IMG/VR virus record: IMGVR_UViG_3300021364_000120
Location: 1 to 29,835 of that record
Strand: one strand, 5' to 3'
Length of the DNA stretch: 29,835 bases
Source: a virus
This document shows positions 1-21,166 of the stretch, piece by piece. Numbering within the stretch: position 1 is the stretch's first letter; each line of letters begins with the position of its first letter. The position numbers were made by a program, and so were the translations under genes. The notes under the pieces are model-generated. The model did no database searches. It saw only the letters and a program-made list of their open reading frames with translations, and was not told the DNA's origin.

Positions 1-237
1 TACTGAAATATCAGCAATTTCACTTGGAACACTACCTGTTTGGTGAACTCTGCAACGGCGCATATCTGTAAATAGTTCAGACATATGAGTTGCTTCAATA
101 GTTGTATTAGCTGAAACTTGACTACTAGTTACTGCTTGTCCGTAACCTTCGTTACCAGCACCTTTACCAAGTATTGTTGCGACTCTTGCTTGTAGTTGAT
201 TAAACCGTGCCGCTGTAATTGTATCGCCTACTGCCAT
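1..237 (-). CDS. Small virion structural protein, N-terminal part (runs off the window)
   Basis: An ATG at 237 opens a frame that stays open for 79 codons to the window edge, so the C-terminus is missing. The product begins MAVGDTITAARFNQLQARVA and contains GKGAGNEGYGQAV and a CRVHQTGS segment. I recall similar small proteins beside the fibre genes of T4-like marine phages, but no function is known to me and no catalytic motif is visible. The start is supported by a GAGG ribosome-binding site seven bases upstream and by a perfect TATAAATA late-promoter motif 37 bases upstream of the ATG. It follows the last of three fibre genes, so a role in tail fibre or baseplate periphery is likely by context only. 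Confidence 0.75.
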   Translation of the reverse strand, partial: MAVGDTITAARFNQLQARVATILGKGAGNEGYGQAVTSSQVSANTTIEATHMSELFTDMRRCRVHQTGSVPSEIADISV

Positions 238-273: not shown

Positions 274-281
274 TATTTATA
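274..281 (-). promoter_or_regulatory. T4-type late promoter motif TATAAATA
   Basis: The minus strand reads TATAAATA exactly, the consensus recognised by the T4 gp55 late sigma factor. It lies 37 bases before the ATG at 237. The TAA inside the motif is the stop codon of the preceding fibre gene (279-277). Late promoters in T4 need no -35 box, so the short element is sufficient in principle. Confidence 0.65.
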
Positions 282-1749
282 CTTTCAAAACACATTCGAT
301 TAATTTTTCTGAATCGTCGTCGGATGACTCAAGAGCTACGCCAACAAGTCCGGTACTAGCAATAGTTGTACATACACCGTCTGCCCAAGCATATACTGGT
401 TGACCTTTTGACACAGGACCTTTAACACGTACAGGAACCCTTCCTTTAAGAGCAACCGCTTGTCCTTCTGCATCTGAATTCATTAGATATGCAGGATTAT
501 CACTTATTGTTCCTACACACATATCTGATGCTTTTGCTGGACGAACTTCTGCATTTCCACCAACTGCTACTGCTGTTCCTACAGGCAGTTCTTCTTCAGT
601 ACTATATACTTCTGCTAAATCAGCATATCTTGCCGCAGTTGCAGTTCCTCTAAATAAATTAGCGTATACATCACCGTCAGCATCTCGCACAGCGACAGTG
701 TTTGCTGTAGAACTTGTACTACCAGTGTAATCTGATCCTGAAACTCTAATTGCACTTGCACTAGTTGCAAGTCCGTTAAAAGAAGTTGCGTATACTGTAG
801 CCCATTTAAAGTTTGTGCTACCTAAATCATAACTAAGGGTACTCGCAGGATTAAATCCTGTATTTGTAATCTTTGCTATTTCTGTTTCTGTATTAGCTGT
901 TGTAACAGCAAATCTTAATTCATTTCCAACTTGGTTAGTAATTTTACCTTGAGTACCATCTTCAATACTTATAAGTAAATCATTTGATGTACCAACTGTA
1001 AGGCCGTCATCTATAAATCTTGCAACACTGTTGAAAGTAGCGTCAGCACCTGGTTCTGATTGAATAAAGTTAGCCGCATCAATGCCTCCTAATTTGAGTG
1101 CATTTGTTGCAGTCCCCCAAAATCTATGATCTGAGCTAGTTACACCATTGGTACTGTCTGTAGTATTTCTTAATGTAATACCTTTACGTATAACATCAAA
1201 GCCTGTAATAGCATTTTGTGGATCTGAACTATCAATTGTAAACTGTTCAGAACTAATTGCAAATAACGTTTCGTCATTTACTACTGCTGTAACTATAGTT
1301 CTAAGCTGAGCTGTAGTATCTCTAACTTCTTTTGTGACCATTTGGCTTACAGAATCGCCAGTTGATTGTGGACCTATAAGAACAAATCCGCCGGTTCCGG
1401 CGTTGGCATACAATTGATTGTTCGTTGTGTCCCACCAAAAATCACCTTCTGTAAGGCCGACAGGTTGTGTAGTGCTAACTTCTGCTCCGCCTGTAGTACG
1501 GAATTTAGTTCCGTCATAAAATTTTAATTTACTACTTGAACTATCAAACCAAATTTGTCCTGATATAGCTCTAGTAGGTTGTTGACCACTTGCAAAATTT
1601 TCAAGTAGTGCAACTAGGTTTTCGTTTTGTATTTCACCGTAGCCTGCATAGTTCTTACCAACTAGTTTTAGATCGGTGGTTTGATCAATAGTACCATCTT
1701 CAACTACTGTAAGCTGTGTACCATTAGTTCTATTAATTATGTATGCCAT
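277..1749 (-). CDS. Tail fibre-like protein with a peptidase-G2-like C-terminal module
   Basis: This 490-residue protein belongs to a three-member paralogous set with the next two upstream genes. Residues 1-125 hold the shared module: MAYIINRTNGTQLTV, then GYGEIQNENLVALLENFA, then two W-rich units (GQIWFD...LKFYDG...GG and GDFWWDTTNNQLY...LIGP). The middle is Thr/Ser/Asn-rich with typical fibre phrases (SYDLGSTNFKWATVYATSF, about residues 300-330). Residues about 370-490 form a distinct domain starting RYADLAEVYSTEEELPVGTA, with NPAYLMN and ALKGRVPVRVKGPVSKGQ. It resembles C-terminal modules of phage fibres related to the peptidase-G2 intramolecular-chaperone family; I cannot assign catalytic residues. 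The ATG at 1749 is preceded by GGGG at eight bases. Inferred role: trimeric host-recognition fibre or baseplate appendage. Confidence 0.8.
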   Translation of the reverse strand: MAYIINRTNGTQLTVVEDGTIDQTTDLKLVGKNYAGYGEIQNENLVALLENFASGQQPTRAISGQIWFDSSSSKLKFYDGTKFRTTGGAEVSTTQPVGLTEGDFWWDTTNNQLYANAGTGGFVLIGPQSTGDSVSQMVTKEVRDTTAQLRTIVTAVVNDETLFAISSEQFTIDSSDPQNAITGFDVIRKGITLRNTTDSTNGVTSSDHRFWGTATNALKLGGIDAANFIQSEPGADATFNSVARFIDDGLTVGTSNDLLISIEDGTQGKITNQVGNELRFAVTTANTETEIAKITNTGFNPASTLSYDLGSTNFKWATVYATSFNGLATSASAIRVSGSDYTGSTSSTANTVAVRDADGDVYANLFRGTATAARYADLAEVYSTEEELPVGTAVAVGGNAEVRPAKASDMCVGTISDNPAYLMNSDAEGQAVALKGRVPVRVKGPVSKGQPVYAWADGVCTTIASTGLVGVALESSDDDSEKLIECVLKV

Positions 1750-1773
1750 TTATTATACCCCGTAATCACATTG

Positions 1774-1781
1774 TATTTATC
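1774..1781 (-). promoter_or_regulatory. Probable late promoter motif GATAAATA
   Basis: The minus strand reads GATAAATA, one mismatch from TATAAATA and a match to the looser NATAAATA form that I recall being reported for cyanophage late genes. It begins one base after the stop codon of the upstream fibre gene (1785-1783) and lies 24 bases before the ATG at 1749. Confidence 0.45.
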
Positions 1782-1782
1782 G

Positions 1783-3576
1783 TTATACACTAGATGTTAG
1801 CTCCTGTATATATGCCCATGCACCGCCAACTACTCTAAATAGTTTTAAAGATCTATCAACTGTTAAAGAAACACTACCTGTAACGTCAATAAATGTTACG
1901 TCATCAAGCACAGATACAGATCCTGAATCGTTTCCGCCGCCGTCTAATGCTTGTACAGCTACTTCTGTCTTTTGTAGTGATGCGATCAAGTCTGCACCAG
2001 TAAAGGTTGCTGTTGCACTTGTTGTATCTGTACAATGCACTCTTGCTTCTGTACCGTTTTCTTTTGAAGATGCAGGAGCAATATCGTTAATTACAAGTGC
2101 TATTTGAGCATTAGAAAGTCCTGTAATATCTAATGCTAAACTTATAGTTTCTAAATTGATTGCACGATCAACATATGCTTTTGTTGCAACATCTTGTGCA
2201 TCTGTAGGATCTGCTACTCCTGATATTTTTTGATTATTTGTAACATTTATAGATCCTGCACTTGTAATTTGAAGTCCTGAATTATTTGATGTAATTGTAT
2301 TTCCGTCAACATTAACATTATCAACATTTAAGCTCTGTAATGCACCTAGAGATGTAATACCCGGTGCGGCAGTTCCTTGTATAAGTGTTATTCCGTTAGA
2401 TTTTAATGCAGTATTTTGTAAATTTATGTTTACATTAGATGACCAAGCATTAGTAGTTAAATCCCAAACAAATTCTTTGCCGCCTTGTGCTGATTGTAAA
2501 ATTATGCCACCGCCGTTTGCTGTGGCATCATCAATAACTGTACTGTCGTCAGTAATACCAAGCTCAATATTTTTGTCTTTTACTCTTAGTACTTCAGTTT
2601 CAACACCTATTCTAGTACCTTCGATGATTAAGTTTCCTGCAATTCTAGCATCACCGTTTACATCTAGTGTATACTCTGGAGAGTTTGTAAATAAACCAAC
2701 ATGTTTTGTGCTTGTTTTTGTATAGATTGCATCAACTGGTCCGTCTGTAGTTCTTACTCTTACTCGCCAATCGTGATCAGTAAGCTGATTTTCTGTAACA
2801 AAACTTGTTCCTAGTACATAACTTTTATTATTCTGTGATGTACCAACTGTTAGTCCTTGTGAATTTTGAATAATTAACGCACCACTTGTAGTACCGTTAG
2901 TATCAGCAGGAAGAAACTGTGCCGCAAGTCTAGTTGCTCCTGTAGCATCAATTAGTGCGTCAGCTCTTGTTGCTGTTCCATGCCATTTAAAATCATCATC
3001 AATTACATTAAATCCTTTTTGGACATCACCTACCAACCCACCTAATTGTGTTCCTGGTGTAGGAGTAAATGCAATTTTACTGTAGATTCCTACAATAGTA
3101 TTACCTATATAAAATTTAATAATTGTTCTACTTGTGCTTTGGTTATCTAGAACTGTTTCAACTTTGGATCCTGTAATTCCTTGGAATGCACTGTAAATAG
3201 GTCCTAGTAGGATAGGCTGGTTGCCATCATAGAAATACATCTGCTTTGATTCATTATTAATCCAAAGATCCCCTTCAACCATATTTGGTTCTACAGCACT
3301 TACAATAGGGCCGCCGCCTGAAGTAAATTCTTCACCGGTATATATTTTTAATCTATTAGTACTTGTGTCCCACCAAAGTTGTCCAGTAATAGGATTAGCA
3401 GGTGGTAATGTATTTGCAAAATTTTCTAGTACACTAATAAAATTTTCATTTATAAATTCACCAAATCCTTTATAGTTTCTTCCTATAAGAGTAATATCGG
3501 TTGTACTATTGTCTATTTGTCCATCTGCTAGATCAACTAGCAAAGAACCATTTGTTTTGTTTATTTGATAGCTCAT
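1783..3576 (-). CDS. Tail fibre-like protein, second of three paralogues
   Basis: This 597-residue protein starts with the shared module (residues 1-130): MSYQINKTNGSLLVDLADGQ, GFGEFINENFISVLENFA, then GQLWWDTSTNRLKIYTG and GDLWINNESKQMYFYDG ending in LLGP. Around residue 300 it has VGLFTNSPEYTLDVNGDARI, a head-fibre phrase also found in altered form in the 673-residue neighbour. Near residue 475 is KISGVADPTDAQDVATKAYV, a common phage fibre motif leading into a trimerising stretch. The C-terminus (about 500-597) is a beta-rich domain without a motif I recognise. Its ATG overlaps the stop of the preceding gene in TAATG, so translation is probably coupled. Inferred role: receptor-binding or accessory fibre. 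Confidence 0.8.
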   Translation of the reverse strand: MSYQINKTNGSLLVDLADGQIDNSTTDITLIGRNYKGFGEFINENFISVLENFANTLPPANPITGQLWWDTSTNRLKIYTGEEFTSGGGPIVSAVEPNMVEGDLWINNESKQMYFYDGNQPILLGPIYSAFQGITGSKVETVLDNQSTSRTIIKFYIGNTIVGIYSKIAFTPTPGTQLGGLVGDVQKGFNVIDDDFKWHGTATRADALIDATGATRLAAQFLPADTNGTTSGALIIQNSQGLTVGTSQNNKSYVLGTSFVTENQLTDHDWRVRVRTTDGPVDAIYTKTSTKHVGLFTNSPEYTLDVNGDARIAGNLIIEGTRIGVETEVLRVKDKNIELGITDDSTVIDDATANGGGIILQSAQGGKEFVWDLTTNAWSSNVNINLQNTALKSNGITLIQGTAAPGITSLGALQSLNVDNVNVDGNTITSNNSGLQITSAGSINVTNNQKISGVADPTDAQDVATKAYVDRAINLETISLALDITGLSNAQIALVINDIAPASSKENGTEARVHCTDTTSATATFTGADLIASLQKTEVAVQALDGGGNDSGSVSVLDDVTFIDVTGSVSLTVDRSLKLFRVVGGAWAYIQELTSSV

Positions 3577-5597
3577 TAGCCCCCTACCCCTGTGTATATA
3601 ATGTAATTCATTGTAGTAAACGGTTGCATAACGTCTAATGGTTCACCAACAGCATCGTTAGTTAGAATGCCACCTGATGTTGGATATGCTTGTCCAGCTT
3701 GTGAACCAGTCGGAGCATCATATTGAATACCTTCTGGATCAGTCGGAACGCCTTGGATATCTCTAATAACATAATATTGATCACCACTAGGTCCACGTAA
3801 ATCGTGTTCGTGTTCAGGTAAGTTTTCAACTTGAATATTTTTCTTCTCATTACCGCCCGAACCACCAATAACATCTGCGTTAACATTTGTAACTCTTCCA
3901 GCACTGTTTCCGCCCATATTATCAGCACCTAATGGTTGACGACCTCTTAAATCAGGAACAGCAAAAAATCCACTAGTAACCAATGATTGGTCTTTGTACT
4001 TGTAACCTATAACTTGAAACAGATCTAAGTAGTCTGAAATTTTTACTTCTAAACCATTACACAATAACCAACCTGCAGGACTTGTATCTCCTGCAAAGGG
4101 TGTTAACATGCCCACAGGTGCAACGCCTGTAACACTATTAAGTAAATTACGTTGTGTTATTTTATAAACACCAGGTGTGCCGCTAGTTCTGTTTACAATA
4201 AATTCATCGTCGATATTAGATGTTGAAACTTCGCTTTTATTAGCAATGAATGAGTTACTTATTGTACTTGTAAATATTTTGTTTGAGCCGCCTTGCTGTC
4301 CGTCAAATGTAATTTGATTTGAACTTACGTCTCCTTGGATTTCAAAAGTAGTAGCAGTTGCTAACTTATTTGTTGATCCAGAACGTCCGCTAACAGTACC
4401 AGTCACATTACCTGTTAAATTACCTGTAAATGTAGTAGCAAAAATATTTGCAAATTTAGTTGTAGAATTACCAATGTTGCTTGCGTTATTTGCTTGAGGT
4501 AAAATATCGTTAGAAATAATATCACCTGCAACATTTATATCTGTACCTACATAAAGTTTTTTAGCTACACCTAATCCACCTTTTATTATCGCGGACCCAG
4601 TTCCTGTACTACTAGAATCAGCAGTATTATTAACTAATATTTTTCCACTTGACTGGATATTACCTGTAACATCAAGTGCCTCAATTGGACTTGGATTATT
4701 AATACCAACCTTTTCTGTAGAATCAACTCTAATTACATTTTTACTAACACCGAGATTGTTTACTCTTATATCAATACTAGATCCAGAAGTTAAGTTGCTT
4801 ATAATACCACTTGTTCCTTCTACTGCAAAAGTTACTAGACCATCTTGTCCTACTTGTAAACCAGAATTGTTTCTAATTATAATAGGACTGTTTGTTGTAC
4901 TAGTAACATCTGTTCTTAAAAAGTTTGATGCTTGTACAGGATTTCCACCTATAACTAATGATTCTGCTTTTTCAGATGTACCGTAATATTTTGTATCTGC
5001 ATTTTGTAATGTTCGGCTAGCAAGATTTACACCAGGTTTAACAGATGTAAAACCTGCGATTGTACTCTTAGGAGTAAATTCTCTAGTACTATAAATTGCT
5101 AATACTTCACCTTGAACTTCAAATTGTAAAACTGTATAATTTATATCGTCAGTACCAACGAGTACAGTTGGTTTTGTACCAGTTAACAACCCATCACTAA
5201 ATTCAGGACCAACTAAGATCCAGCCACTACCTGTAAACAAGTATAATTGATTATTATCTGTATCACTCCAAAGATCACCTGCTATTGCATTTGTAACATC
5301 AGGTTCAATGTCGCCTTTTTTAATTCCGCCAGCATTCGCCCATGTTGCGCCATCATAAATTTTTAGTGTAGAAACTCCTACAGATTTATCATACCACAGT
5401 TGCCCTTGCACAGGATTTGTAGGAGCAGTTGTACTAGCAAAATTTTCTAATAATTGTATAAAATTTTGTCCTATAACTGTACCATAGTTTGCAGTGTTAC
5501 GTCCTGGAATACTTAAACTAGTAGTTGTATCAGTAGTTCCATCTTCAACTGTAATTGGTTGTTTATTTGGATCTGTGAAATTTATTGAATATGCCAT
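3576..5597 (-). CDS. Tail fibre/collar-domain protein (gp12-like C-terminus)
   Basis: The 673-residue protein has the shared N-terminal module (residues 1-135: MAYSINFTDPNKQPITV, NYGTVIGQNFIQLLENFA, GQLWYDKSVGVSTLKIYDG, GDLWSDTDNNQLYLFTG). A beta-rich shaft contains VGINNPSPIEALDVTG and a Gly/Asn-rich stretch GNLTGNVTGTVSGRSG. Residues about 492-556 match the phage tail collar domain (Pfam PF07484): PVGMLTPFAGDTSPAGWLLC, then PDLRGRQPLGA. An HxH motif follows in ENLPEHEHDL; in T4 gp12 an HxH pair binds a metal ion inside the trimer. Inferred role: short tail fibre or related adhesin. It overlaps both neighbours by one base (TAATG), indicating one transcript. Confidence 0.88.
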   Translation of the reverse strand: MAYSINFTDPNKQPITVEDGTTDTTTSLSIPGRNTANYGTVIGQNFIQLLENFASTTAPTNPVQGQLWYDKSVGVSTLKIYDGATWANAGGIKKGDIEPDVTNAIAGDLWSDTDNNQLYLFTGSGWILVGPEFSDGLLTGTKPTVLVGTDDINYTVLQFEVQGEVLAIYSTREFTPKSTIAGFTSVKPGVNLASRTLQNADTKYYGTSEKAESLVIGGNPVQASNFLRTDVTSTTNSPIIIRNNSGLQVGQDGLVTFAVEGTSGIISNLTSGSSIDIRVNNLGVSKNVIRVDSTEKVGINNPSPIEALDVTGNIQSSGKILVNNTADSSSTGTGSAIIKGGLGVAKKLYVGTDINVAGDIISNDILPQANNASNIGNSTTKFANIFATTFTGNLTGNVTGTVSGRSGSTNKLATATTFEIQGDVSSNQITFDGQQGGSNKIFTSTISNSFIANKSEVSTSNIDDEFIVNRTSGTPGVYKITQRNLLNSVTGVAPVGMLTPFAGDTSPAGWLLCNGLEVKISDYLDLFQVIGYKYKDQSLVTSGFFAVPDLRGRQPLGADNMGGNSAGRVTNVNADVIGGSGGNEKKNIQVENLPEHEHDLRGPSGDQYYVIRDIQGVPTDPEGIQYDAPTGSQAGQAYPTSGGILTNDAVGEPLDVMQPFTTMNYIIYTGVGG

Positions 5598-6208
5598 TAG
5601 CTACTAAGCCCCGATAAACTTTGTACCCTGACAGTATAATCAATTTGAATAAGTCTATTCAAAGATTTTTGTACCGGGTGAAAAATAACATGTGTCAATA
5701 AGCGTCCTGTACCAGTTGGATCATATCCTACTAATCCTAGCTCGTCAAACACATACAAGCTCTCAGTATTACTTGCATTGTCGATAGCGTCTTGTCCACT
5801 TGGTTCACCGTAGTCTAATAAACAAGTTACTAATATGTCAGTATAATTAGTTCCACTTACGTGTCTAGTTTCAATTTTGTTACGTGTAGGATCAAGGTTA
5901 TTCACGCTTCTATCATCGACAACTTTTTGGTAAGTTTGGTTATATAAACTTGCATTTGTACCTGTTGAGTTTGGTGTAAGGTACGTTATAATTCCTGTAG
6001 GGTCAATGCTAGTTCCACCGTTACCAAAGGCCATTTGATATATAAATCCCTCACCTGCATTACTTAAACTCTCTGCAAGTGAAATACTCATATTTTCATA
6101 ATGAATAGCATTCCTTTTATTGATAAGGACTTCACCCGTAGAAGGGTCACTAATTTTGATATGTCCTTGTATCAAAGTACCGTTTATGTCTTTAAAATTG
6201 TCTTTCAT
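5597..6208 (-). CDS. Virion structural protein of about 200 residues, unknown function
   Basis: The 203-residue product begins MKDNFKDINGTLIQGHIKIS and contains DPSTGEVLINKRNAIHYENM, IYQMAFGNGG, YNQTYQKVVDDRSV and VIFHPVQKSLNRLIQIDYTV. I recall proteins with this pattern as structural components between the large baseplate genes and the fibre genes of marine T4-like phages, but I cannot assign it to a T4 gene product. No signal peptide or membrane segment is visible. The ATG at 6208 has an AGGA site seven bases upstream (6216-6219) and a late-promoter-like motif overlapping the stop of the giant gene. An out-of-frame ATG two codons earlier is ignored. The gene ends in TAATG, overlapping the collar-domain fibre. 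A baseplate-fibre connector is a guess from position. Confidence 0.75.
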   Translation of the reverse strand: MKDNFKDINGTLIQGHIKISDPSTGEVLINKRNAIHYENMSISLAESLSNAGEGFIYQMAFGNGGTSIDPTGIITYLTPNSTGTNASLYNQTYQKVVDDRSVNNLDPTRNKIETRHVSGTNYTDILVTCLLDYGEPSGQDAIDNASNTESLYVFDELGLVGYDPTGTGRLLTHVIFHPVQKSLNRLIQIDYTVRVQSLSGLSS

Positions 6209-6227
6209 TTCATGATCCTATATACAC

Positions 6228-6235
6228 TATTTATT
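6228..6235 (-). promoter_or_regulatory. Probable late promoter motif AATAAATA
   Basis: The minus strand reads AATAAATA (NATAAATA class), about 20 bases before the ATG at 6208. The TAA within it is the stop codon of the giant structural gene (6233-6231), repeating the arrangement seen at 274-281. It would allow the fibre cassette to be transcribed independently of the giant gene. Confidence 0.45.
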
Positions 6236-9200
6236 CGGGCAACGAGGCTTGCTCTGCCTTCAAGAAGCGTGTTATTAAATTATTTGTAGTTTCTAGTGAA
6301 CTTCCATCTGGAGCCCATAGTCTACCTATTTTACGTGTTACTATTACTTTTTCGCCTATATCTGGAGCCTCAGCAAGTGTAACTAAACTAGTTATTCCGT
6401 CAACTGTAAATTCTGCAGGTGAAGTTTCATCTGCTTCTGGAGAATCTTGGTTAATTAGTATGTTAAACTTACTTATTGCATTTTTGCGTAAACGTCTTCC
6501 TCCTACGAATACGTCAAATTCATTATTAGATCTAGGTGTATATCCTAGATCAAACTGCGTTGTGCTTCCGTCTCCGTCAAATGTAAGTGTTACTGTTTCG
6601 TCTTTGTAAGGTACAGTTTGTTGGAAACCTTGATTAAACACATCAGATCCAGTTTCATGTACAGTTGCAACACCAGTTCCTAGTGTTCCTCTTGTAATTT
6701 GAGAAAGTTTATTTCCTGATATTTTAAAGAACTCTATTCTTTCGCCATTTATCATTAACACACCTGGTAGATTATTTTGCGGATTAGGTGTAGCTAATCC
6801 CTCTACACTTTCTAATACAATTTCTTTGTCAAAAATATGTAAATCCTGTGCTAACTTATATTCATAACTATCACCTAGTCTTTTATATACAGTCCTATTA
6901 AGAACATCTTTGAATTGTCTAAATGCAAATTTTGTCCCTGAAACACCTTCTGTTCCGAATTGGATTATTTCTATAGCATCATTATCTAAAAGTATGTCTT
7001 TTAATTTAATCGCTTTTTTGTTGTCTGTTAACTTATAATCAATACTTGGTGTTAATAAAATTTTATTTTTAGTTACCCAAACATAATTAATATCTACCGG
7101 TATAGCCGGAAGTGTTATTATACCATTGCGTAATCTATGATATTCTTCGTGTTCATCTGTACCTACTGTTAAAGCAACTCTGTTTATAACATCAAAATGT
7201 TGTTTTTCAATTTTTTGTATATCATGCTTACTAAAATGATAGACTTCAATTTTTTGTCCGTCTGCAGGTATTGTTTTTAAAGTTATATTAGTATAACTAG
7301 AATCAAGTTCTGTAATATTAGTTAGTGAGTATTCGCTGTCAACTGTAACATAAATTTCTAATTTATCACCAGGACCACCTACACCCTCAAACAATTCAAT
7401 ACTACTATTGAAAGGACGTATGATATAATCTTGAGCACTTATTAGTTCTCGAGTTTCATTTAAGTAAACTCTAATATCTTCGCTACTTAGTTTACCTGGT
7501 TCTTGTTGCCATTCTCTCATTTGATATTCTCTAGCAGTTGTAATATCAAATGATTCTTTGTATCCGCTAGACAAAATAGTATTATCAACTTTAACAATTA
7601 TATTTTGAATACTAGGTGCACGACTAAACGGTGTTAGACTTAATTGGAAGGTTCCTGTTGATCCGTCACCATCAAACGTATCAATTTTTATTTCACTAAA
7701 TGTTTGTTCTTCACCTTCGTATATTGCGTAATTAATTATGCTTCCGTCTGCAGGCGCTTCTCCAAATATTATATTATATCTACCGTCAACTGCTTCAATA
7801 ATACTTTCGACTACTACACCATCAACTGTCGCATAATAATTAACTTCGTCTTGTTCTGAAACTCTTGTTACAAAAGTATTTGTTGATCCGTCTCCTACAA
7901 AAATGTCTAAGTCTAATATTTTTTCACCATTGCCTGATAAACTTACAATATTCACAAGTTGATTTATTTCAGGTATGCTAGTAAAAGTAATTTCTCTATT
8001 TTTGTAGTCTACTGTATATTGTGTTTTATCTTGTAATGTACTATCAATCTTTACAAACAACGAATCTGCATTTTGAGGTAAAACTCCAAAAGCAAATGTT
8101 TTAGTTATACCGTCACCTCTATATGTGTTACTTGAGATTGTACTTCCGCCTCTACCGGATCTATGATAGACTTTAATATCAACTGTGTCTAAAACCTGTC
8201 CTGGAACTAATTCTTCAGGACCTTTAGATGTGGTCGGGGTAACAAATCCATCACCGTCAACTACAATATCTTCTGCTTTTACTCCAGATGCAGTAGTATA
8301 AGATAAGTTGCCGCCTTGTAATAGCGTGTCATAACTAGCCGGGTCAGCAACAAAACTACCGTCTGATGTTGTTTTACGAATAATGAATACATCATTTTCA
8401 CTGACACTTAAAGTTTCTTCATCGAATCCTATTATGTTATCTAAATTTTGATCATCAACAAATGTAAACCCTGTTTGTCCTGAACCAATTATACTAGATA
8501 TAATTGCTGTATCATTAGTTTGTTGCGGTGTGCCAAAATTAGGATCATCTATTCTGATTCCATTTTTATAAACATTATAACTTACATTTGTTTCTAACGG
8601 TTTTGCAAAAGTATAAATCTTAGTGCTATCATCTGTAACTCTAAATACTTCATCTTCATATGTTGTATCAAAAACATCATAAGAACTTGTAAACCATCTA
8701 TCAGAATCCCAACCAGCGCCGCCACCAAAATCTATGCTATCAATTTCTACTCCGCCATAATCTATACCGTCTAGTAATTGTGATAAATCATTTGCTAACA
8801 TTCCAGTTGTTGGATTGTAAAATAGATTAATTCTATCTTGTGCTTGCAACAACGTAATATCTTTTTTATAATCAATAATAATTTCACTATTTGCTACAGG
8901 TGCTGTCGTAAATATAATTTGACCTTTATTGCGTGTATATCCTTTTACTTCGTCAGTTACATTTTGTAACGAATATGTACTTCTTAAGGATTCAATACCG
9001 TTTACAGTAATTGTTACGGTTGTTGTATCTAAATTTAAAGGATATTTTAGATCAAAAATTTGTTGATTTGGTTTACTTACAAAAGTTTCTACAGTGTCTA
9101 GGCTAGCTAATAGCATAGTGCCTGTAGTTCTGTCAAACTTACATATTAAATGAGCACTTCTAATCTTGCCGTTACCTAAAATAGCAGTTGCCCTTGCTTC

Positions 9201-12200
9201 TCTACCACCATCTTCTAAACTTCCGTTTAATACAATTAAAGGTGCAGTGATGTATCCGCTACCGCCGTTAGTTACAACAATGTTACTTATTTTTCCTCCG
9301 GATCCTAAATAAGCAGTAGCCTTTGCACCTGAGCCGCCGCCGCCTGTAATTTCTACAACCGGTGCTGAGCTATATCTAGTTCCTTGATCTCCTAAAACAA
9401 TTTCTTTAATTTCAAAACCTAAATTTTCTATGTAGTGTTTACTTGGGTAAAAATCAGTTTCGGTGTCACCAGTAATAACACTGTCGCCACGGACTGTTAA
9501 TTCTTGTGGTAAAATTTTTCCTTGTCTTTCATTGTAAACAGGAGGAGCATCAAAGTCTGTTACTGATGATTGGCTGTTTTCAAGATTTTCATATATACTT
9601 ACATATTCGCGTATTTTAGACGCATAAGGTTTTGCTTCTTTGATATATTCTTCGTAACTAGGAAGACTATCATTATTAAATGTGATCTTTTGTTCTAAAT
9701 TTCCAACATTGTGTTTTGCTTTTACAAAACTTGTTTTAAATGCCCAATCTATATAAGGTTGTTCACTAAACGCATAACGTAAACTAGCAAAGAATAAATT
9801 GTTATATTCTGTTTCTAAATCACCAATAAAAATATTTTCTTTTATAGTTTGCAATATAATACGTAACTCGTCTACAGCCTGTAAGTCAAAAAAGGCACTG
9901 TCATAACTTATACCATCATATCCTGTATTTGAAGAAATTGAATCATAAATCAATTTATTAAATGCTATTGTTCCGTTTTGTCTTCCTACAGTTTCATAAT
10001 TTACAGTGTAGTCAGCACCAGGAACATCATTTATTTTTCTTAATAGTAACCAGCCACCTGTGCCTACATTATTGATTTTAATAATATTTCCAATTGCATC
10101 GTTTAAAGAATCTAATTCATATGCACCTTGCACAACAAAATTAATTGCTGTGTTTATATTATATCCTGATTGATACCAATCAATATAATTCCAATACCTA
10201 GTAACATCAAATGCCTGACTTGTAGATCTGTTGAATTCTCCATTAATATATTGATATACTGCCCAACGTCCTCCTATAGATTCGTCTGAATTTATAAGAA
10301 CGCTAAATGGTCTAACGATAGCTTGAACATTACTTGAATAATTTTTGCCGACATTTCTAATATTAATATCAATAATGCTTCCGGATTCATTTATTTCAGC
10401 TATTAGTTCTCCAGCTTCTCCTTGAGAATCTATAATTTCTATTATTGGAGGAGTAATATATCCTTGACCTTGGTCTTGAACTTGTACTTCTGCAATTCTT
10501 CCATCTACAATAATTAAATTTAGTTTAGCTTGTCTAGCATTACTTGTATTTACAGTTCGTAATTCTGCAAATGAATCTATTATTTTATCAAAAGTATTAT
10601 CATTAATAGAAGGTTTAGGTGTTATTAAATTTAAATTAGTAATATCATACTCGTCTACTATTAATTTGTCTTTTAAAACAATATTAACACGTTCAACAAG
10701 TTGTTTGACTGCTTCTACTCTGTTCACAAACATACTTTGTCTTGGTATATTCTGTATACCGTATTTTTGTTTTGCACTTAAATTAGGATCAGGAACAGGT
10801 CTGCTTTCAATATCATAACCAACTAAACTGTCTATCCATTTTCTTTCAATATCTGCATTAGGTTTACTAGTAGGTAATCCTTCTGTTAGAATTTGATATT
10901 CGTTGTGGATATTAATATCTTGATTATCTATTGTCCAATATCTTATATTCAATGCAACATCAGTATCTTCGATTAAACTTTCACAGTTATATAGAGCAAG
11001 TTTATTGTTTGCTAACAAAGTAATAAATTTATATCCTTGTTGGGATGGATTTTGTATAAATTGCTGAACTTCGTATGCACTTATAGATCTTCCGTAAATA
11101 TCTGGTACAGTCTTTTTATTTTGAACCCAAAAGTAATTATAAGTAGTAAAAGTTCCTGTTGCACTATCATATGTTCTTGTTGAACTGAATGCACCATTAC
11201 CGTATAGACTCTTACCGCTGATGCCTTTTGCTAGACCTTGTTCTGTATCTGCGAGATCATCCCACTGCGAAGGAGTTCTTTCTGTTTTAACCCATTCATA
11301 AACATCTACTGTTGTGCCAGGAAACAATTCATTAAATTTGTTTACACTTGTAATAATATCTCCTTGATAAGGATTAATCCATTTTGCATTTCCTATATTC
11401 CACCAAAGTTTACCAACAAACTTTTCATTTGTAAAATTATACTGATCATAGGTTGCATTGGTTCCTTCAGAAACTGAACTATAAGTTGCAGGATCGTAAC
11501 TTGTCTTAAAAGATATTTCTTGTTCGGCAGGACCTGCAATTTTACCTTGTATTGGATCAATATAGTCTAGGTATGTTAATAGTTTTTGGGTTTTTGTATT
11601 ATACAAAAATGCACCGTTAAATTTATCAAGATTAACTTGATCGATAGGTGTACGTAGTGTATTCCAATTTCTTGCATTCTTATCTTTTTTATAGTCTACA
11701 ATAAGTCCGCTTGCAATAATTGCATCATCTGGATCATCGTATCCTGGAAGACTCACATATACATGATTGTTTTTTGTTTTGATATTATCACCAAAATAAA
11801 TAACATCTATATTTAAACTAAAGTTCTGTGCATATACTAATGTATTATTAATTAATTCAAATACACTAACTGTTCCACTTTCGCTATCTGTTGTAGAGAA
11901 AGAAGTTAGATTGTTGTCCCAAACAGTTGATGCTGGATTCAAACCTGATGCTGGATCTAAAACATATTCTTCACCTTGTTTTGGATTTGTTAAACGTTCT
12001 CTATAAGTGTCAAAACTTGTTTTATTTTTTATGTCGCCGCCTCTTGAAGAAACTGCTAGTACATTATTATCAAAACTTAAATTTGTTCCAAATTGTGTAT
12101 TAATTTCTTTATCAATACTTCTAATAGTTTGTGTTAATTGGAATGTACCATTGGTCTGAGTATAAACATAAACTGTTCCTGAATCGTTTGCCTCTACACT

Positions 12201-15200
12201 ATTAGATGGTGCTCCTATAAAAATTTGGGTTCCATCAGTTGAAATATCTAAACTAGAACCAAACGCTTCATAATCATTTAATTGAGATTCAATTAATTGG
12301 CTATATTGGTATCTTCCAAATGTTTTTCTATACACTGCAACTTTTACATTTGGTTGAGAACTATCATCAAGATTAATATACGATGCTGTAGTAATTAAAA
12401 CTTCACCATTTCCACTAATTGCAAATTTTTCACCAAAATTAGTTAATAAATTTTGTTCAATTGCACTATCATCGCCAAGAGTTATACCACTTATATTAGG
12501 TATAAATCCTTGAACGTCTGTACTTTCACTTAATTCTGTCCAAAACATATTATTAAATGATTGAGCTGTAAGATTTGTAATTGCTTTATATAAAGAATTA
12601 TTGTACAGAACAATTTCATTCTCAAAATAATCTAAATTAGAATCAAAAATTCCTCTGTAATAAGGATCTTTTCCTAATTGGAATACATTATCTGAATTTG
12701 TTTTATAGAAGAAATATAATCTACCTTCATTTAATTCAGTGCCGTCTCCTGCCGCATGTGCAATTATTGTATAGTTAGTTCCATCTCTAATAATTTTAAC
12801 TTTAGTTCCTAACTTCCTATTAGTATTAGCTGTTGGAATACTAAAGTATCCTTCTAAATTATAATCTTGTCCGCTACTCTTTCGATAAACTCCTATTACC
12901 CCTTCTTTGGTATAAGAGCTAGAATTTCCAGTTTCAATAACTGGAATGTGGTTTGTTTGTTGCCAATCAAAATTAAACTGGTCTGGTGCTTCTACTGTTC
13001 TAGTAATACCTTGTTTAACATCGTTTTCATAAATCCAATATTCTAAACCAGTTAAAATATTGCTAGGACTAATTGGAATATCTTGGCCTTTATCAACAAC
13101 AACTAGTCTACCTACATTTGTTGTGTCCAATTTAGTGTTTACAATATTACCAACTAGTCGTTCTGTACTATCATTTAAGAAAAACGACAATGTTGATAGA
13201 TCATTATTTTCTAAACCTAAACTCCAATTTGCAGTTGTATTTTTTACAAACAATCGTACTCTATCAAACAATCTTATAACATTAGCTACTTCAGCACTAG
13301 CATTTGTGTTCTGGTCTAAGACAATATCTCCAACCTGTGGAATAAAAGGATTACCTTGCAAATCAAAGTTTGTAAATAGGACTTCTATTTCGCCATCCCA
13401 TATATCATTCACTGTATGCGTTGTATTGTTTAGATAATCAAATGTCAAACCTATTGCTTCAGGACTTTGAAGTTGATTATTTAATTTCAATTTGTTTAGA
13501 TTGAAATTAAACTGTTGTCCTGTAACAAAATTGGCTTCGCGTGGTTCTCTAAATACCCACTTAGTGCTAAGGTTAACTATTTCAGTTTGACCTTCTATAA
13601 AGCTCAATGTTTCAATGTAACTGATCTCAGTATTTTGAGTAGCTGTTGCATTTTGTAAATTATCAAAAATATTAAAATAATTATTAACAGTATCAACTTC
13701 GCCTGATTTAATAATGTCTTTAATAATAAGTCCTTCATTTGTTTCTGCTATATTTTGACTATTGAAGGATGTTCCTACATTTATTAACCACCAACCATTA
13801 TATGCAGAATATTCTGTAGGGAAAACTTTAGTATACTCTCCAAGAAATGCTACTCCTGAATATAATTCATCAGTATCTTCAAAATCACCATTTACATCTT
13901 TTAGATATATAATTGTTCTGTTGTCTTGGTTTGTAAATCTATAATAAACTTCTGCTTTACCTGCTGTAGTTTGTACAATGTCGCCCACACCAGGAATTGC
14001 TTGAGTGTTATCTATTAATACTATTAAATCTATTTTTTCGACAATAGGATGTTCACCATTAATAAAATCCTTTGTAATAACTAAATCATTACCAAACGGT
14101 AAACTTCCTTCAGGGTATCTAGTAGTAAACTCATTCCATTTTAATTGTAATTTATCGCCAATTTTAGTTGCTTCATATTGTGATGCTGGTGCTTTTATTA
14201 ATATGTGATCTGTTGCTTCTTCTGGAAAGCTATAATTACCTCGTATCATAAATGGAATACTAGGATAATTTCCGTTTTCATCTTCTAACGGTGCTAAATT
14301 TAATGCACTTGAGTTAAAAGTATTAAACACAGTTGTCTCAGCAGGGAGAATTTGTCTTCTTGCTCTCCATAATTGTTCTTTATAACTTACAATATCGCCT
14401 TGCTCGTATGTGTTACCGAAAGCAAAAAGATCTTTAAATTGTGTTTTTACATTACTTGCATCTGGAGCTCCAACTACAATATACTGTCCGTCATCACTAA
14501 CTGCAACACTATCACCAAATTTACTATTAGAACTAAACAAAGAAGTTTGTTCGTTAAAAGTTTGATTGAGCCTATAATCTTCAACTTCTGACGCCCTTAA
14601 ATATATTTCTAATCTTCCTGCGCCTGAGCTATCTGAGCCGCCTGCAACAAGGGTTACAGTATTTTTATCTACATCAAAACTTTTTCCTACAGTTGTATTT
14701 GGTTCTGAAGCAAAGATTTCTTTATCAATATTATAAGCCTTGCTATTTTTTAATACAGACCATTTACCGTCACCGGCATCATCTACCCATACAGTTTCAT
14801 TCTCAAATAAATTTGTTTTAGCCACAAATTGATTAAGTTCTGCTAACTCATTTATTCTTGCACTTTCAAATACTGTTAAAAATCCATCTATATCTGATTC
14901 TTCAGTTACTTTTCCTGTAATAGTTACTTTGTTTTGTTTAACTGATTCAACTACATAAAAACCATCATTTTCAGTATTAACAATTCCGACAATGTCGCCT
15001 GTTTTTACACTAGGAATAGTATCTAGTGTAATTTCACTAGAAGTACCGGACTGCGACATTGCAGTAATTCTATTGTTTGTGCCTACATGCTTATAAACAT
15101 TCCAAGATTGTTTTTCTCTACCTACCCAAACATAATCACCAGTAGCTACTTCATTTATGGATAAATTTGCTATTTCATTATAATCTAAAACTTGGAACTT

Positions 15201-18200
15201 AACATCTTCTATATTAACATAACCTGCTGTTTTACTATACCCCTCAGCAAAATATTTTGTAGGGAACGGTTTGTGATTATAGTTATTAGGTTTGACATAT
15301 ATATCATTTGATCTAAGTTTATATACTAGAGATGTATCTCTTGGATCAATTGTATCCACTAGCTCTATCGTTTGTGGTGATAATCTATATTTGCTTTCAT
15401 CTAATTTAATTTCAAATTCATCAAAGCCTGCATTTGCACCATATTGTCCTGAACGTATTGCCCATTCTTCAAAAAATTCTAAACTTTCCTTATTAGCACT
15501 TCCTAATTTATCAAACAATTTAGTTAATGAATTTTTAGTTGCTTTGTCTCTAATAAAACCTTGATAAAATTTATATTGACTTACAGGATCAGGAATAATA
15601 TTTTCTAAATATTTTCTTGTTTGATAACCTATCAAATGTTGTGCTAGTTTTTGTTGGTCGGTGTCAAAGTTGTCTGTTTCAAGATCATAAAAATCACTAA
15701 ATTGATTTGCTTTATAATCCCAGTTTGGAAGTAGTCCTGATTCAGGCTTACTAGAAAGAACCAACCAATTATTAGTTTGGAATTGTGCCGCGCCTAAAAT
15801 TTTACTACGTGCAGTATAATAAAACTGTTTATATTTTACAAGGTCGCCAATTGCATAATCTTGCCACGGTAGCCATTCTGTAACTTTTGCATTGTCATAT
15901 ATAAATCCTGGTATATTAAGACCACCATTCCAGTCGTCTGATCTATAACCTAAAACTTTAATACGTTCTTGTCTATAGCCACTGGCTTTATCATAAATTG
16001 TATCATTAAAAACTGTTGAATTATCTAAAATTACAACATGTTCTTTTTGAACAACAGGTATTTTAATATGGTATATACCATCAGCTGTGTTAACAGTTTG
16101 TAACCCGAATTGATTAGAATTATCTCTTTCTGTACTTGTAAATTCTGGTAAAAACTTTTGTCCGTCAGCACTTAACAAACTATAGTCAAAGAAATTATCA
16201 AACACATCATCAACTACAGCATATTCTTTTTCAAATTTAATTACATTTGCACTTGGACTAACTGTAAGTAATGTTCCAGCTTTCCAGTTTTGTAGAGTCC
16301 AAAACATAAATTCTTTTGCACTTAATTTCCAGTCTTCAATAGTTGTAATAGATTCATTAAAGTTGTCAAATACAAACCCTTGAGCAGAAAGATAGGTTCC
16401 GTAACCTAGCAAGAAGTCTACTACTTCTTGGACTGTTCTTAATGTAGTTCCGTATGACAATTCAGATACGGTAGATTCAAAAATTTTAGCTAACGTTGCA
16501 GTTACTCCGCCGTCTTCTGGTAAGAAAGGTAATTTTGCAAAATTATCTTGATTAAATGTGTTTCCGCTAGTATGAGTTAAAGTTACTCTAAAGAATGTAT
16601 CTTCATATCTTACTATTTGATCTTGTTCATAAGTTTTTTGTGAATCCCAGTCAACAAAAGATTGACTAATGCCGCCGACTCTAAAAGCTGGATCATTTTG
16701 TTGGTGGACAGGTGCATAGTATTTAAAAACAGGAGAGGTTCTATCATATCCTCTAAGACTATAACCGCTGGCACTTTTTTCTATTATAACTCCACTATAT
16801 GAGTACAAATCTAAAGGTGCACTAGTGTTTAAGAAAATTTTGTAATTTTCTTCAGGAACAAAAAGATTACCTTCATTCGTCGGAGTTCTACTATCTAGAA
16901 TTAATCTAAACTTTTCTTTTTGTGTAAATCCAGCAATTTTCATTGCCATTTTGTTATCGAGATTAATTAGATCATTTTTATATCTAGTATATGCTTCTTC
17001 ACTATTACCTAGCAAAAGAGCCTGCATATAATTGACTATACCTGCTGTATTAATTCTATTGTCATCATCTGCACCGTTAGGAAAAAGTAAATCTTTAGAA
17101 TTCATTCTTTTTCCTGTTTCTGTATAAACAAGATTATTAGACGAATCTCTTTTAATTCTGCTTATATCAAACGCTAAACTAAAAACCTTTGCGGGTTGGT
17201 TTATAAGCCAAGCACAAATTAATGCAAAAGGAAAGTCTGAGCTTTTACGCCAAGCTGTCTCAACCGGTGACTCGTCACCAAATCTAAAACTGTTTCCTAG
17301 TTGAGGAGTAATTAAACTTTTTGCTAAACCAGTTAGATTCGGCGGAACAAGATTTCCATCATTATCAACAGGAATATATTTTAATAAATCTGGATGTTTG
17401 TACTTGGTTATTGTTTTTTTTGGCTTGGCAACTATACCGTCTTGTATATCTTTCCATAAAACAAGATTATCACTAGTATATGGTGCTGTTCCGTATTCAT
17501 TATCCCAATAATCAGGTTTAATTGTAAATCCTAAACATTCCCATGGATGAGTATGCGGCCTATCTGTTCCTAAATATTCGTTGTAAACAGCTCTCCAACT
17601 GCCTGGTAGATTTGAACCATCTGGATATTGACCATGACTATAATTGTAGGTAAAACCATTGCCGATAGTATATGTACTATTTGTAGTATAGCCAACATTT
17701 CCGGCAAGATCTAACCATTGATTAAAATCAACTATTAAAGATTTCGTGATATCAAATCTGTCAAAATTAGATCTATTTGTATATGAACCTACAAAGTCTT
17801 CAATATTAAAAATGTCTTTGTTATATTCTTGTTTTATGTTATTATAAATTCTTTTTTCTAGTTCTAATAATAAATTGTCTCTAAAATCACCGTACGCTTT
17901 AATCTTTGAACCGTCATGTCCTTGAATCATACAAACTAATTTTGGATAATTTACAAAATCCTCTGTATAATTACCAGACTCAGTTGCGCCTGTGGTAGGC
18001 AAATAAAATACTGTGTTCGATCCCGCAAACATCAATACTTTAGCAGTTCCTGTGCCGCCATTAAGTGTATCTTTTTGTTGTGCGTCTACTTCTGTTGTGT
18101 ATAAAGGATAGAACCAACCTAGTTTAGATCCTTCGTTCATATCTGGAGATTTAACTCCGTATATTTTAAAAGGTCCGGTAGTTTCAGGTTCAGATAAAAT

Positions 18201-18569: not shown

Positions 18570-19265
18570 AGTTTGTAATACTAAGTTTACATGTTCTTGT
18601 GTTTCTCCGTCATAACCTAAGTCATTAGCAGTTTGTAAAAACGCTCTTTTAAATTTTCCGTATTCATTTTTTCCAAAACGTATTGCTTTAAGAGCATCAC
18701 TATCTCTATTTGTTAGATGGTATGATGCAATATTAATACTTCCTGAATGTTGGACAAATTTTGTACCAAACTGAGATATCGGACCTAAATTACGTAAATT
18801 ACTAGTTCCAGGAAATGTTCCTTCGAACTCATCTAAATTTTCTACTATACTTTCAACATGATCGATAACTTGACCAAATGTAAATGATTCAATATTTTCA
18901 TTGAGTGGATTATTTTGTAAATTTATAGGAAACTCATAAAATCCGTTTGCATTTTTCTTTGCACTTGACTGTGTTTTAATAACTAGTTTGTTATTAATAG
19001 ATAAATTGTTAGAAAAATTTATATAACGAATGTCATTAACATTATAAACAGTATAGTCTGTATCTTGTTTTAATTTTTTATTATCAACAAAAACTTCTAT
19101 TACTAAATCATTAAGTGTTCCACTCTTATTATAAACATCGATAGCATAATCATTATTTTGATCTTCAGTATCATACTGACGAACTACTTTTTGAATACTA
19201 TTTTTTTCAGCCTTAGTCCATGCTGTTAGGTCTGTACTTGTTTCTCTGTTTTGATAATCTTTTAA
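18570..19265 (-). CDS. Upstream continuation of the giant gene's frame, without its own start codon
   Basis: This stretch has no complete gene of its own, but the frame of the giant gene is open through all 232 codons between 19265 and 18570. The translation is ordinary protein: LKDYQNRETSTDLTAWTKAE near the start, VIEVFVDNKKLKQDTDYTVY in the middle, then FGKNEYGKFKRAFLQTANDL leading into the ATG at 18569. I found no ATG, GTG or TTG in this frame in the interval. It is therefore best read as the missing link between the 634-codon gene and the giant frame, translated by -1 frameshifting or broken by a one-base error or mutation. Confidence 0.75.
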
Positions 19266-19280
19266 AAATAAATTATAATT
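19262..19280 (-). other. Frameshift point, candidate -1 slip at T-TTT-TAA
   Basis: The frame of the 634-codon gene stops at TAA (19264-19262). The giant gene's frame is closed only by a TAA at 19283-19281, so the two overlap in this short interval. Directly before the first stop the message reads TAT TTT TAA AAG. A one-base backward slip of the Phe tRNA on TTTTT continues as TTA AAA GAT TAT. A single missing T or A in the T5A4 run would give the same apparent break. I see no obvious stimulatory stem-loop or pseudoknot just downstream. Confidence 0.65.
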
Positions 19281-21166
19281 TTACGTGTAATTACATTACT
19301 ACTGTCTTGATAATTAAAAGTGTCTGCTAACAAATTAAAATCAAATATTATGTCACCGCTATTTTCAATACTTTTATAGCTTAACGGAAATCCTAGTTCT
19401 GAATCAGCTGTTCCTGTGCCTTCTCTGTAACTAAAGATTTTTGTACCTGTAAATGTAGAACTTTCATAGGAAGAAATACTATTGCCGTTACTATCAAAAA
19501 TATCAAATAACGGACTTTGATTAGTTTTAGTTTTTTCTTGAGCTACTTTCCAATCTGTACCGTTGTAATATAAAATTTTACCTTTAAAATTATTTCCAGT
19601 CTTAACAAGCACTGTTTCATTTAATAACGGATCAGCATCTTCTTCTTCTTTTAATGCAATCTGTGTATTATTATTAAATTGTAATTGAGTGACTCTGTAT
19701 ATTTTTCCTTTTACTCTTGCGTCTGTATCTGCACCGAAGATAACACGCATACCTTCAACAAGCGATATACCATCAACACTATATCCTAAACTACCTTCAA
19801 CAATACTAAGAGCATCTTTTGTGAAATTATCATAAACATCAATATCTTTTTTAACTTGTGTACCAGAATTAATTAATTTTAACCCTGCATCAAATTCAAT
19901 GATAGGACGTTTAGCGCGATTGTCTTGATTTATTTCAGGAGCAATGCCAAGTATTTCTGCTGTTTTTTCAATTACATCTTTATGAAACCATTTATTATAT
20001 CTTGCCCATTGATTTGCATCAGGAGATGCTCTATTGATTATAATATAATCTTTTGTATTAGCATAGCTTAATGCATCATCAAAAGGTAATTTGTCAAAGG
20101 GATTTGTATCAAACTCAGTATTAATGTCACTAAGGTAATTGGCTGTAATTTCTAAATTATCTGCTTCTACAAGTTTTATAGATTTACCTACACCTTCAAC
20201 AAACCATTCGCCTGTAGCGTATTTTTCAGGAGTAACAATTCCTCCAAATTTTATTTTCATGCCATTGGAAAGATCATATCCATTATTCATTCTATAGGTT
20301 TTTTTACCTAATATTTCCTCTTCGACATTAATTTCACTATTTTCTTCGATGTTTAAAACTTTAATTAAACCGCTTGCTTCTATGTCAAGATCATTTATAT
20401 AGTAAAGGTAAGACGGTGCATCTAAAGGAACTTCAAAAGTTATAGTACCCTGTTCTACCTTTTGTTGAGAAAGACCGTTATTATATAAATTATCATCAGA
20501 TATTCTGCTTGTAGTTCTAATTGTAAATGGCATATCATCTGTGTTTAACACAAATGTATATGTTTGTCCTCTATAAAGTGTAAGCGTTGGATTAGGTGTA
20601 GGTGTATCATCGTCAAATGCATATGCAATATTATCACCATTATCAACTTTAGTTACACTTATTGTTGTAACTAAATCTCTTGGTTCTCCTATAACATCTA
20701 TGCTATCTGGTCCGTTTGGTAACCAATAATATTCACGGAAGTTTGTAAACTTATCCCAATTAATATGCGGATTCCATGCATAATATTCTTGACTGTTTAA
20801 TCTTGAATGGTCATCAACAATTCCTTGTCTTACTTTAATACTATTAATGTAATCATTATAGTCTGCAAAATAATTTACATTATCTAGATCATCTTCAATA
20901 ACAACAGCTGGTTCAAATTGATAATTTTCTCTATCTGAACTAACATCTCCGACATAGTTATCTGAGCTTTGATCGTATGCTTTACTATTCTTTCTTCCAA
21001 AATAACCGTCAATCTTTTCAACAACGCCTGGCTGAGTTAACTGGTCAAGTGTGCTTGATAAGAACTTTTGGTTAGCAACAGTTCTAAAGTACTTAGGTAG
21101 TAGTTCACTACTCCTACGCTTTTTATTATTTTTTCCTAAAGGGATATTAAATTCATCATTGGCCAT
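19262..21166 (-). CDS. Giant baseplate/tail structural protein, N-terminal part (gp7-position)
   Basis: The 634-residue product starts MANDEFNIPLGKNNKKRRSS and continues with LPKYFRTVANQKFLSSTLDQ, WDKFTNFREYYWLPNGPDS and other well-formed segments. I recall this N-terminus from very large proteins next to gp6 in marine T4-like phages. Residues about 187-271 look like a cupredoxin-type beta-sandwich (PTLTLYRGQTYTFVLNTDD, MPFTIRT, then FEVPLDAPSYLYYIN and GLIKVL) but lack copper ligands. The protein ends abruptly in RKIIIYF at a TAA, and coding sense continues at once in the -1 frame, so this is probably the first part of a polypeptide of about 4978 residues. The ATG overlaps the gp6-like stop in TAATG. 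Inferred role: wedge component joining gp6 to peripheral parts. Confidence 0.8.
   Translation of the reverse strand: MANDEFNIPLGKNNKKRRSSELLPKYFRTVANQKFLSSTLDQLTQPGVVEKIDGYFGRKNSKAYDQSSDNYVGDVSSDRENYQFEPAVVIEDDLDNVNYFADYNDYINSIKVRQGIVDDHSRLNSQEYYAWNPHINWDKFTNFREYYWLPNGPDSIDVIGEPRDLVTTISVTKVDNGDNIAYAFDDDTPTPNPTLTLYRGQTYTFVLNTDDMPFTIRTTSRISDDNLYNNGLSQQKVEQGTITFEVPLDAPSYLYYINDLDIEASGLIKVLNIEENSEINVEEEILGKKTYRMNNGYDLSNGMKIKFGGIVTPEKYATGEWFVEGVGKSIKLVEADNLEITANYLSDINTEFDTNPFDKLPFDDALSYANTKDYIIINRASPDANQWARYNKWFHKDVIEKTAEILGIAPEINQDNRAKRPIIEFDAGLKLINSGTQVKKDIDVYDNFTKDALSIVEGSLGYSVDGISLVEGMRVIFGADTDARVKGKIYRVTQLQFNNNTQIALKEEEDADPLLNETVLVKTGNNFKGKILYYNGTDWKVAQEKTKTNQSPLFDIFDSNGNSISSYESSTFTGTKIFSYREGTGTADSELGFPLSYKSIENSGDIIFDFNLLADTFNYQDSSNVITRKIIIYF

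Follow-up and report, generated by a model that had tools for sequence, protein, structure and literature searches.

A conserved set of three baseplate-linked fibre genes in marine jumbo phages, with evidence for exchange of the Peptidase_G2-type end of the third

Leiman et al. reportedly concluded in 2006 that T4 gp10, gp11 and gp12 are related trimers that arose by triplication. In T4, where the order is PAAR, gp6, gp7, gp8, gp9, gp10, gp11, gp12, these are three consecutive genes after gp6 and the large wedge genes. The same positional order was found in the virus record IMGVR_UViG_3300021364_000120 (29,835 bases; the whole stretch analysed is called the window), whose minus strand carries a baseplate cluster of the T4 type. 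The minus-strand order is a gp5-like hub lysozyme, a CHAP protein, a PAAR protein, gp25, a gp6-like wedge protein, a giant protein, a conserved protein of 203 amino acids (aa), three fibre genes and the start of a further gene, so that the fibre cluster lies downstream of the gp5, PAAR, gp25 and gp6 wedge genes, as in a T4-like baseplate cluster. The fibre genes are called here A (P0003, 673 aa, 3576..5597), B (P0002, 597 aa, 1783..3576) and C (P0001, 490 aa, 277..1749), all on the minus strand; A and B, the first two transcribed, overlap by 1 nucleotide (nt). The source of the window is a marine jumbo T4-like myophage, with Phosso, Atu_ph07, PA5oct and RaK2 as its kin. When gp6 and the 203-aa protein were compared, the closest isolates were Phosso and Atu_ph07, then SCTP-2, PA5oct, RaK2 and the 121Q relatives, all with genomes of ~285 kb or larger.

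A baseplate block with one to several genes for fibres of the same N-terminal type is also present in Phosso, Atu_ph07, PBECO4/RaK2, SCTP-2 and PA5oct. As in the window, a homologue of the 203-aa protein adjoins the fibre gene or genes in PA5oct (Wroclawvirus; gp357-gp360), Phosso, Atu_ph07 (Polybotosvirus), 121Q/PBECO4 and RaK2; a giant structural gene and gp6/gp25 lie nearby in Phosso, Atu_ph07 and PA5oct; and a gp360 homologue lies downstream of the fibres in PA5oct. The number of fibre genes at the locus differs: one in Phosso, Atu_ph07 and the RaK2 group and two in PA5oct, compared with three in the window. In CBA120 and phiKp24, several fibres or tailspikes of one phage assemble via N-terminal anchor regions (PMC8825819, PMC9700779). 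Their anchors resemble T4gp10, and depolymerases are predicted at the tips of phiKp24; neither feature was found in the window fibres. Exchange of domains among receptor-binding proteins is well documented, and intramolecular chaperone domains occur on different proteins (PMC10684548). The examples described there swap the receptor-binding or enzymatic part, whereas here a chaperone-type domain alone is swapped, cut at its predicted cleavage codon, with the fibre otherwise conserved. Module-bearing fibres, conserved gene order at the baseplate, chaperones that cleave themselves and mosaic fibres are each of a kind already known; a limited literature search found no description of a chaperone-type domain traded exactly at the cleavage codon on a conserved fibre.

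The data suggest, with moderate confidence, that A, B and C are three dedicated fibres of the baseplate periphery that share a docking module, and that C bears a tradable, self-cleaving tip. The initial annotation had noted that the first 125-135 residues of the three proteins align, and this homology was confirmed. For residues 1-135, the local scores of all three pairs were 258-292, compared with shuffle means of 30-33 (maximum 66), giving z values of 37-48, and composition-adjusted BLASTP between the N-termini gave E values from 4e-33 to 2e-42. The best outside match to the A N-terminus (E 9e-19) was weaker than these mutual matches, and the three are therefore closer to one another than to other fibre proteins. 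The shared region does include the first ~135 residues, but homology reaches further, to ~250-270 residues in the pairs with C and to 320-325 between A and B; the pairwise z was 4-19 for segment 135-260, and segment 330-end was at background.

The module comprises residues 1-140 of A (5178..5597), 1-135 of B (3172..3576) and 1-135 of C (1345..1749), all on the minus strand. In A it contains a helix (IGQNFIQLLENFA) and two W-rich units, unit 1 at about residues 58-90 (5328..5426) and unit 2 at about residues 98-133 (5199..5306). The proposal that these units are an internal duplication was supported by their profile match: hhalign aligned them over 29-31 columns at 34% identity with a probability of 98%, which is indicative for such short related profiles. 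Unit 2 occurs in the marine proteins and in those of Phosso and Atu_ph07 and, unlike in the window, is absent from the PA5oct and RaK2 relatives, so the duplication of the unit would be younger than the module, or lost in those relatives. All 26 modules searched matched both phrog_15511 and phrog_14394, and these two PHROGs already hold the module without an assigned role. The A N-terminus matched 68 of 50,697 phage records, mostly of this jumbo group, with some cyanophages and a few others; the cyanophages and those few other records matched only the W-rich part. PF07880 (T4_gp9_10_N) was not among the matches to E 10 of the 26 modules, BLAST of T4 gp9/10/11 against the module gave nothing significant, and no PDB chain was matched; the module was therefore rejected as a T4 gp9/gp10 homologue.

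A search with A yielded 79 marine-type virus loci. In 79/79 the giant protein is followed by the 203-aa protein and then by A, B and C, as far as the contigs reach; all three fibres were visible in 70, and the remaining nine were cut by contig ends. One 262-kb record contained exactly three full-length modules. In L084, L085, L086, L089 and L090 other genes intervene between B and C; within this L084-L090 clade, L086 (12970-14397) encodes at that place a protein of 475 aa that is rich in glycine and contains a hint-like segment, CFMAGTMI. A phylogenetic tree of 73 modules sorted by slot, that is by A, B or C, with 6 label changes compared with 40.6 after shuffling, some of its deep branches being weak and long; in the same tree the arrays of XacN1 and RAS14 and the PA5oct pair were separate expansions. 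Because the N-modules sort by slot, the sequences indicate that the A/B/C triplication is old and largely vertical. The suggested gene triplication with swapped adhesive ends therefore held in part: one module was multiplied and its copies carry differing ends, but there is no free swapping of ends between A, B and C.

It had also been proposed that the three proteins compete as alternative fibres for a single docking site, resulting in mixed virions and a broader host range. All three do carry an identical type of N-module, and arrays have grown to six copies in XacN1 and RAS14. Fibres that could replace one another would, however, be expected to undergo loss and gain, whereas these loci retain a single A, a single B and a single C in a constant order, each with module sequences typical of its slot. 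We consider this competition improbable; the constant one-each composition of A, B and C favours three dedicated positions. If the three proteins formed a heterotrimer or a stacked complex through their first ~260-320 residues, this would account for a shared region that is longer than a simple anchor and includes a common mid domain. Phosso, Atu_ph07 and RaK2 have a single module gene at the locus, which must homo-oligomerise, and such a complex is very unlikely.

The C-terminal types proposed earlier (a collar, an unknown beta domain and a peptidase-G2-like domain) agreed with the family searches. Protein A consists of the N-module, a mid domain and a Collar-type end (PF07484, E 2.4e-15; residues 496-554, 3936..4112, minus strand). 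The Collar domain and a weak Gp10_C match at the same end are its likeness to T4 gp10/gp11/gp12, and the N-module, with no T4_gp9_10_N match, is the difference. Protein B consists of the N-module, a shaft with a DPTDAQDVATKAYVD motif and an unassigned terminal beta domain, for which the Pfam search found no family. Assignment of the B end was given up, as its model had a predicted local distance difference test (pLDDT) score of 54 and no fold match; only the shaft region gave a weak PDB sequence match (23sh). In the main clade, the last 130 residues tracked residues 1-330 with r 0.97 for A and 0.94 for B, and the ends of these two proteins differed between clades only. The A end is a Collar in most loci and a Peptidase_G2 (G2) domain in L085, L086, L089 and L090, which carry a G2 tip on both A and C; the tip of A in these four is closer to the C tip of the main clade and represents an older between-slot event. 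Slot B is enlarged to 1971-1984 aa in L071 (12100-18054) and L077 (12094-18009), with an N-module still 52-54% identical to that of the window; the L071 protein has a terminal Peptidase_S74 domain, which likewise represents a family of self-cleaving chaperones.

Protein C consists of the N-module, a shaft and a Peptidase_G2-type end. Against PF11962, the isolated tip scored 27.5 bits, above the gathering threshold of 25, and the whole protein scored 24, just below it; all 15 tip homologues matched the family at E<=0.1. Among solved chains, the tip profile matched phi29 gp12 (3gqh, 6qz9, 3suc) and Dpo31. A Foldseek search with the tip model (pLDDT ~88) gave 3suc (E 5e-4) and 3gqh (E 7e-4) with prob 1.00; the template-modelling score normalised to 3gqh was 0.54 with a high root-mean-square deviation, and other phage beta-fold proteins scored similarly. 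None of the aligned copies from slot C, Phosso, Atu_ph07 and PA5oct deviated from Asp377 and Glu380, which aligned to D..E of 3gqh and 6qz9. The aligned Asp is the first residue of the 3gqh chain, and in 3suc, which is described as pre-mature, Gln occupies the Glu position. The C tip is therefore like the phi29 gp12 chaperone (3gqh, 3suc) in profile, fold and the Asp-x-x-Glu at the domain start, and differs in being shorter (114 vs 163 residues), in having Ala for Ser before the Asp and in belonging to a fibre of a contractile-tailed jumbo phage; Dpo31 likewise has Ala before the Asp. By this resemblance, C is predicted to cleave itself before Asp377, and probably does so. Since slot C carries the G2 end throughout, and the single fibres of Phosso and of Atu_ph07 end in G2 as well, as does PA5oct gp359, the G2 end is probably ancestral. 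The label "adhesive end" may be wrong for C, as its tip belongs to a self-removing chaperone family.

The exchangeable unit of C is this Peptidase_G2/intramolecular-chaperone cassette (residues 377-490, 280..621, minus strand), which starts at Asp377 of YADLAE, with the predicted cut between Ala376 and Asp377. In the same set as used for A and B, the correlation between N-part and tip identity in slot C was 0.32, and among 98 slot C proteins it was 0.48. Pairs such as L104/L111 (N-part 51%, tip 100%) and L160/L164 (51%, 97%) share nearly the same tip on distant fibres; L028 has an N-part 99% identical to that of L031 with a tip of 52%, and its tip is 98% identical to that of L050 with an N-part of 79%. 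In the sharpest cases (L104/L111, L104/L133, L160/L164, L028/L031, L028/L050 and L109/L104), DNA identity shifted -12 to +11 nt from the Asp codon of DLAE, and the shift ended at 341-373 nt, with the stop at 342-351, delimiting a cassette of ~345 bp. Both flanks, neighbouring genes included, were unaffected, and the remaining exchange pairs had blurred cassette limits. The tip and N data rejected each other's clades in the approximately unbiased test (p-AU 8e-42 and 2e-5 in the L028 cases), the L058/L024 tip clade was rejected on N data (p-AU 3e-45), and the clade of the window, L014 and L015 was rejected on tip data (p-AU 0.001); the tested groups were picked after the trees were seen, and these p-values are indicative. 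The L047/L048 conflict was non-significant (p-AU 0.32).

A search with the tip found 80 loci, 76 of which were complete slot C genes bearing the module. The tip was single-copy in eight of ten marine records searched, and in the other two a protein of ~4,000 aa gave a second, weaker match. On these grounds, tip exchange between the paralogues A, B and C within a single genome was rejected. An assembly chimera behind all of the mosaics is unlikely, as the L104 type occurs in three samples and L111/L133 are two contigs from different samples, with the caveat that one L104-type contig shares a sample with L111; single-contig mosaics such as L028 may still be chimeric. As judged from identities and trees, the only end that is exchanged frequently is the G2 domain of gene C, and this exchange takes place between phages. 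Our tentative interpretation, which we would place somewhat short of an even chance, is that marine jumbo phages diversify one fibre of a constant set of three by trading a chaperone domain that cleaves itself, the crossovers falling at its cleavage codon. If true, a domain thought to be discarded would have a selected post-assembly role, as a tip, a cap or a match to host factors.

The exchange might instead be passive: conserved sequence at YADLAE and at the next gene start would serve as crossover sites, without selection on the domain. The crossovers do lie in conserved stretches, around TATGCTGACTTAGCAGAAAAATAT on the 5' side and, in the L028 group, at the next start ATGGCAGTAGG, but nothing comparable occurs in A and B, and passive exchange is possible at best. 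Slightly more plausible, though still doubtful, is the main rival, in which the G2-like domain is retained on C as a receptor-binding or exposed tip, so that its exchange alters host range or surface identity. It would explain why only the C segment is exchanged and the ends of A and B are not, a pattern expected of a diversifying tip; Ala in place of the phi29 Ser before Asp377 fits it as well, and related beta folds are those of retained phage head or capsid proteins (Foldseek 8qsy, 6qyy, 9kzj, 5wk1). Against retention, neither Asp377 nor Glu380 varies, both residues being shared with the self-cleaving domain of phi29, and that domain is absent from the virion (PMC9863714).

Under the preferred reading of three dedicated fibres, A, B and C would be three trimeric proteins at the baseplate periphery, each docked on the wedge by its N-module (the helix and one or two W-rich beta units), with the remainder of each fibre forming shaft and tip. 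The docking partner would most likely be the 203-aa protein (P0004, phrog_11259, 5597..6208, minus strand) and/or the giant structural protein (a 4112-aa open reading frame (ORF), 6231..18569, minus strand), both encoded just upstream of the fibre set. The old triplication would have given each copy its own slot, all three being retained together and positioned like T4 gp10/gp11/gp12, with a putative stoichiometry of one fibre type per site. The G2-type chaperone of C would trimerise the fibre and then remove itself before Asp377; its gene segment, which runs from the cleavage codon to the stop, is traded between phages. The homologous proteins do occur in virions: PA5oct gp355 and gp357-360 (the giant protein, the 203-aa homologue, both module proteins and gp360) are annotated with electrospray ionization tandem mass spectrometry, and the phAPEC6 virion table lists gp250c (40.3 kDa, 40% coverage) and gp251c (21.95 kDa) (PMC7247149), which by gene order and mass would correspond to PBECO4 gp543/gp544. 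A P0004 homologue lies immediately upstream of the module gene or genes in every relative inspected except XacN1 and RAS14.

Several points weigh against this reading. The XacN1 module array has no adjoining P0004, and the pairing is thus not universal; the module has no match to the T4 gp9/10 Pfam models or to any PDB chain; and the AF2 models were of low quality except in the tip and parts of the module. Immediately before the predicted cut, all aligned members have Ala376 where phi29 has Ser, so that cleavage may not happen. Frequent exchange of a supposedly discarded domain is also unexpected and could mean that the tip stays on the virion. An old, fixed triplication can now be told apart from an ongoing exchange, and because the latter targets a chaperone-type domain, whether that domain is truly discarded becomes directly testable.

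The module and the 203-aa protein together provide a recognisable anchor for finding fibre genes missed in jumbo phages. No tail-fibre homologues were reported for XacN1 (PMC5852040), yet six tandem module-bearing fibre-like genes are present in it (L009 14049-23105), as in RAS14 (L010 9370-18047), some with TPTPTP-rich linkers. The PA5oct record (L007) has a second array of three module-bearing genes at 98705-102169 (98-102 kb), away from the baseplate cluster. At the PA5oct baseplate locus, a third gene considered as a module gene was rejected, since its homologue is the gene that follows C; the start of that gene lies at 1..237 of the window (minus strand), and its full-length homologue in L014 matches PA5oct gp360 (27% identity, E 1e-16).

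The giant gene is broken in the window: a 634-aa ORF (19262-21166) and the 4112-aa ORF match consecutive parts of one ~4,555-aa Phosso protein. The gap between the two ORFs (within 18570-21166) is open in the frame of the giant gene and has no start codon, indicating a frame break near 19260, either a sequence error or real. Rfam and tRNA searches of the window gave no matches. Radical-SAM and oxidoreductase gene clusters lie near the single fibre gene in Phosso (L004 4871-17396) and Atu_ph07 (L005 11909-18070). Downstream of slot C and the gp360-like gene, L028 (16700-18900) has a row of neighbouring genes whose starts resemble one another (MSNGVLCFANNNGKINY, MSKGYLLVAMGDDYIKQA) and which are perhaps glycosyltransferase-like.

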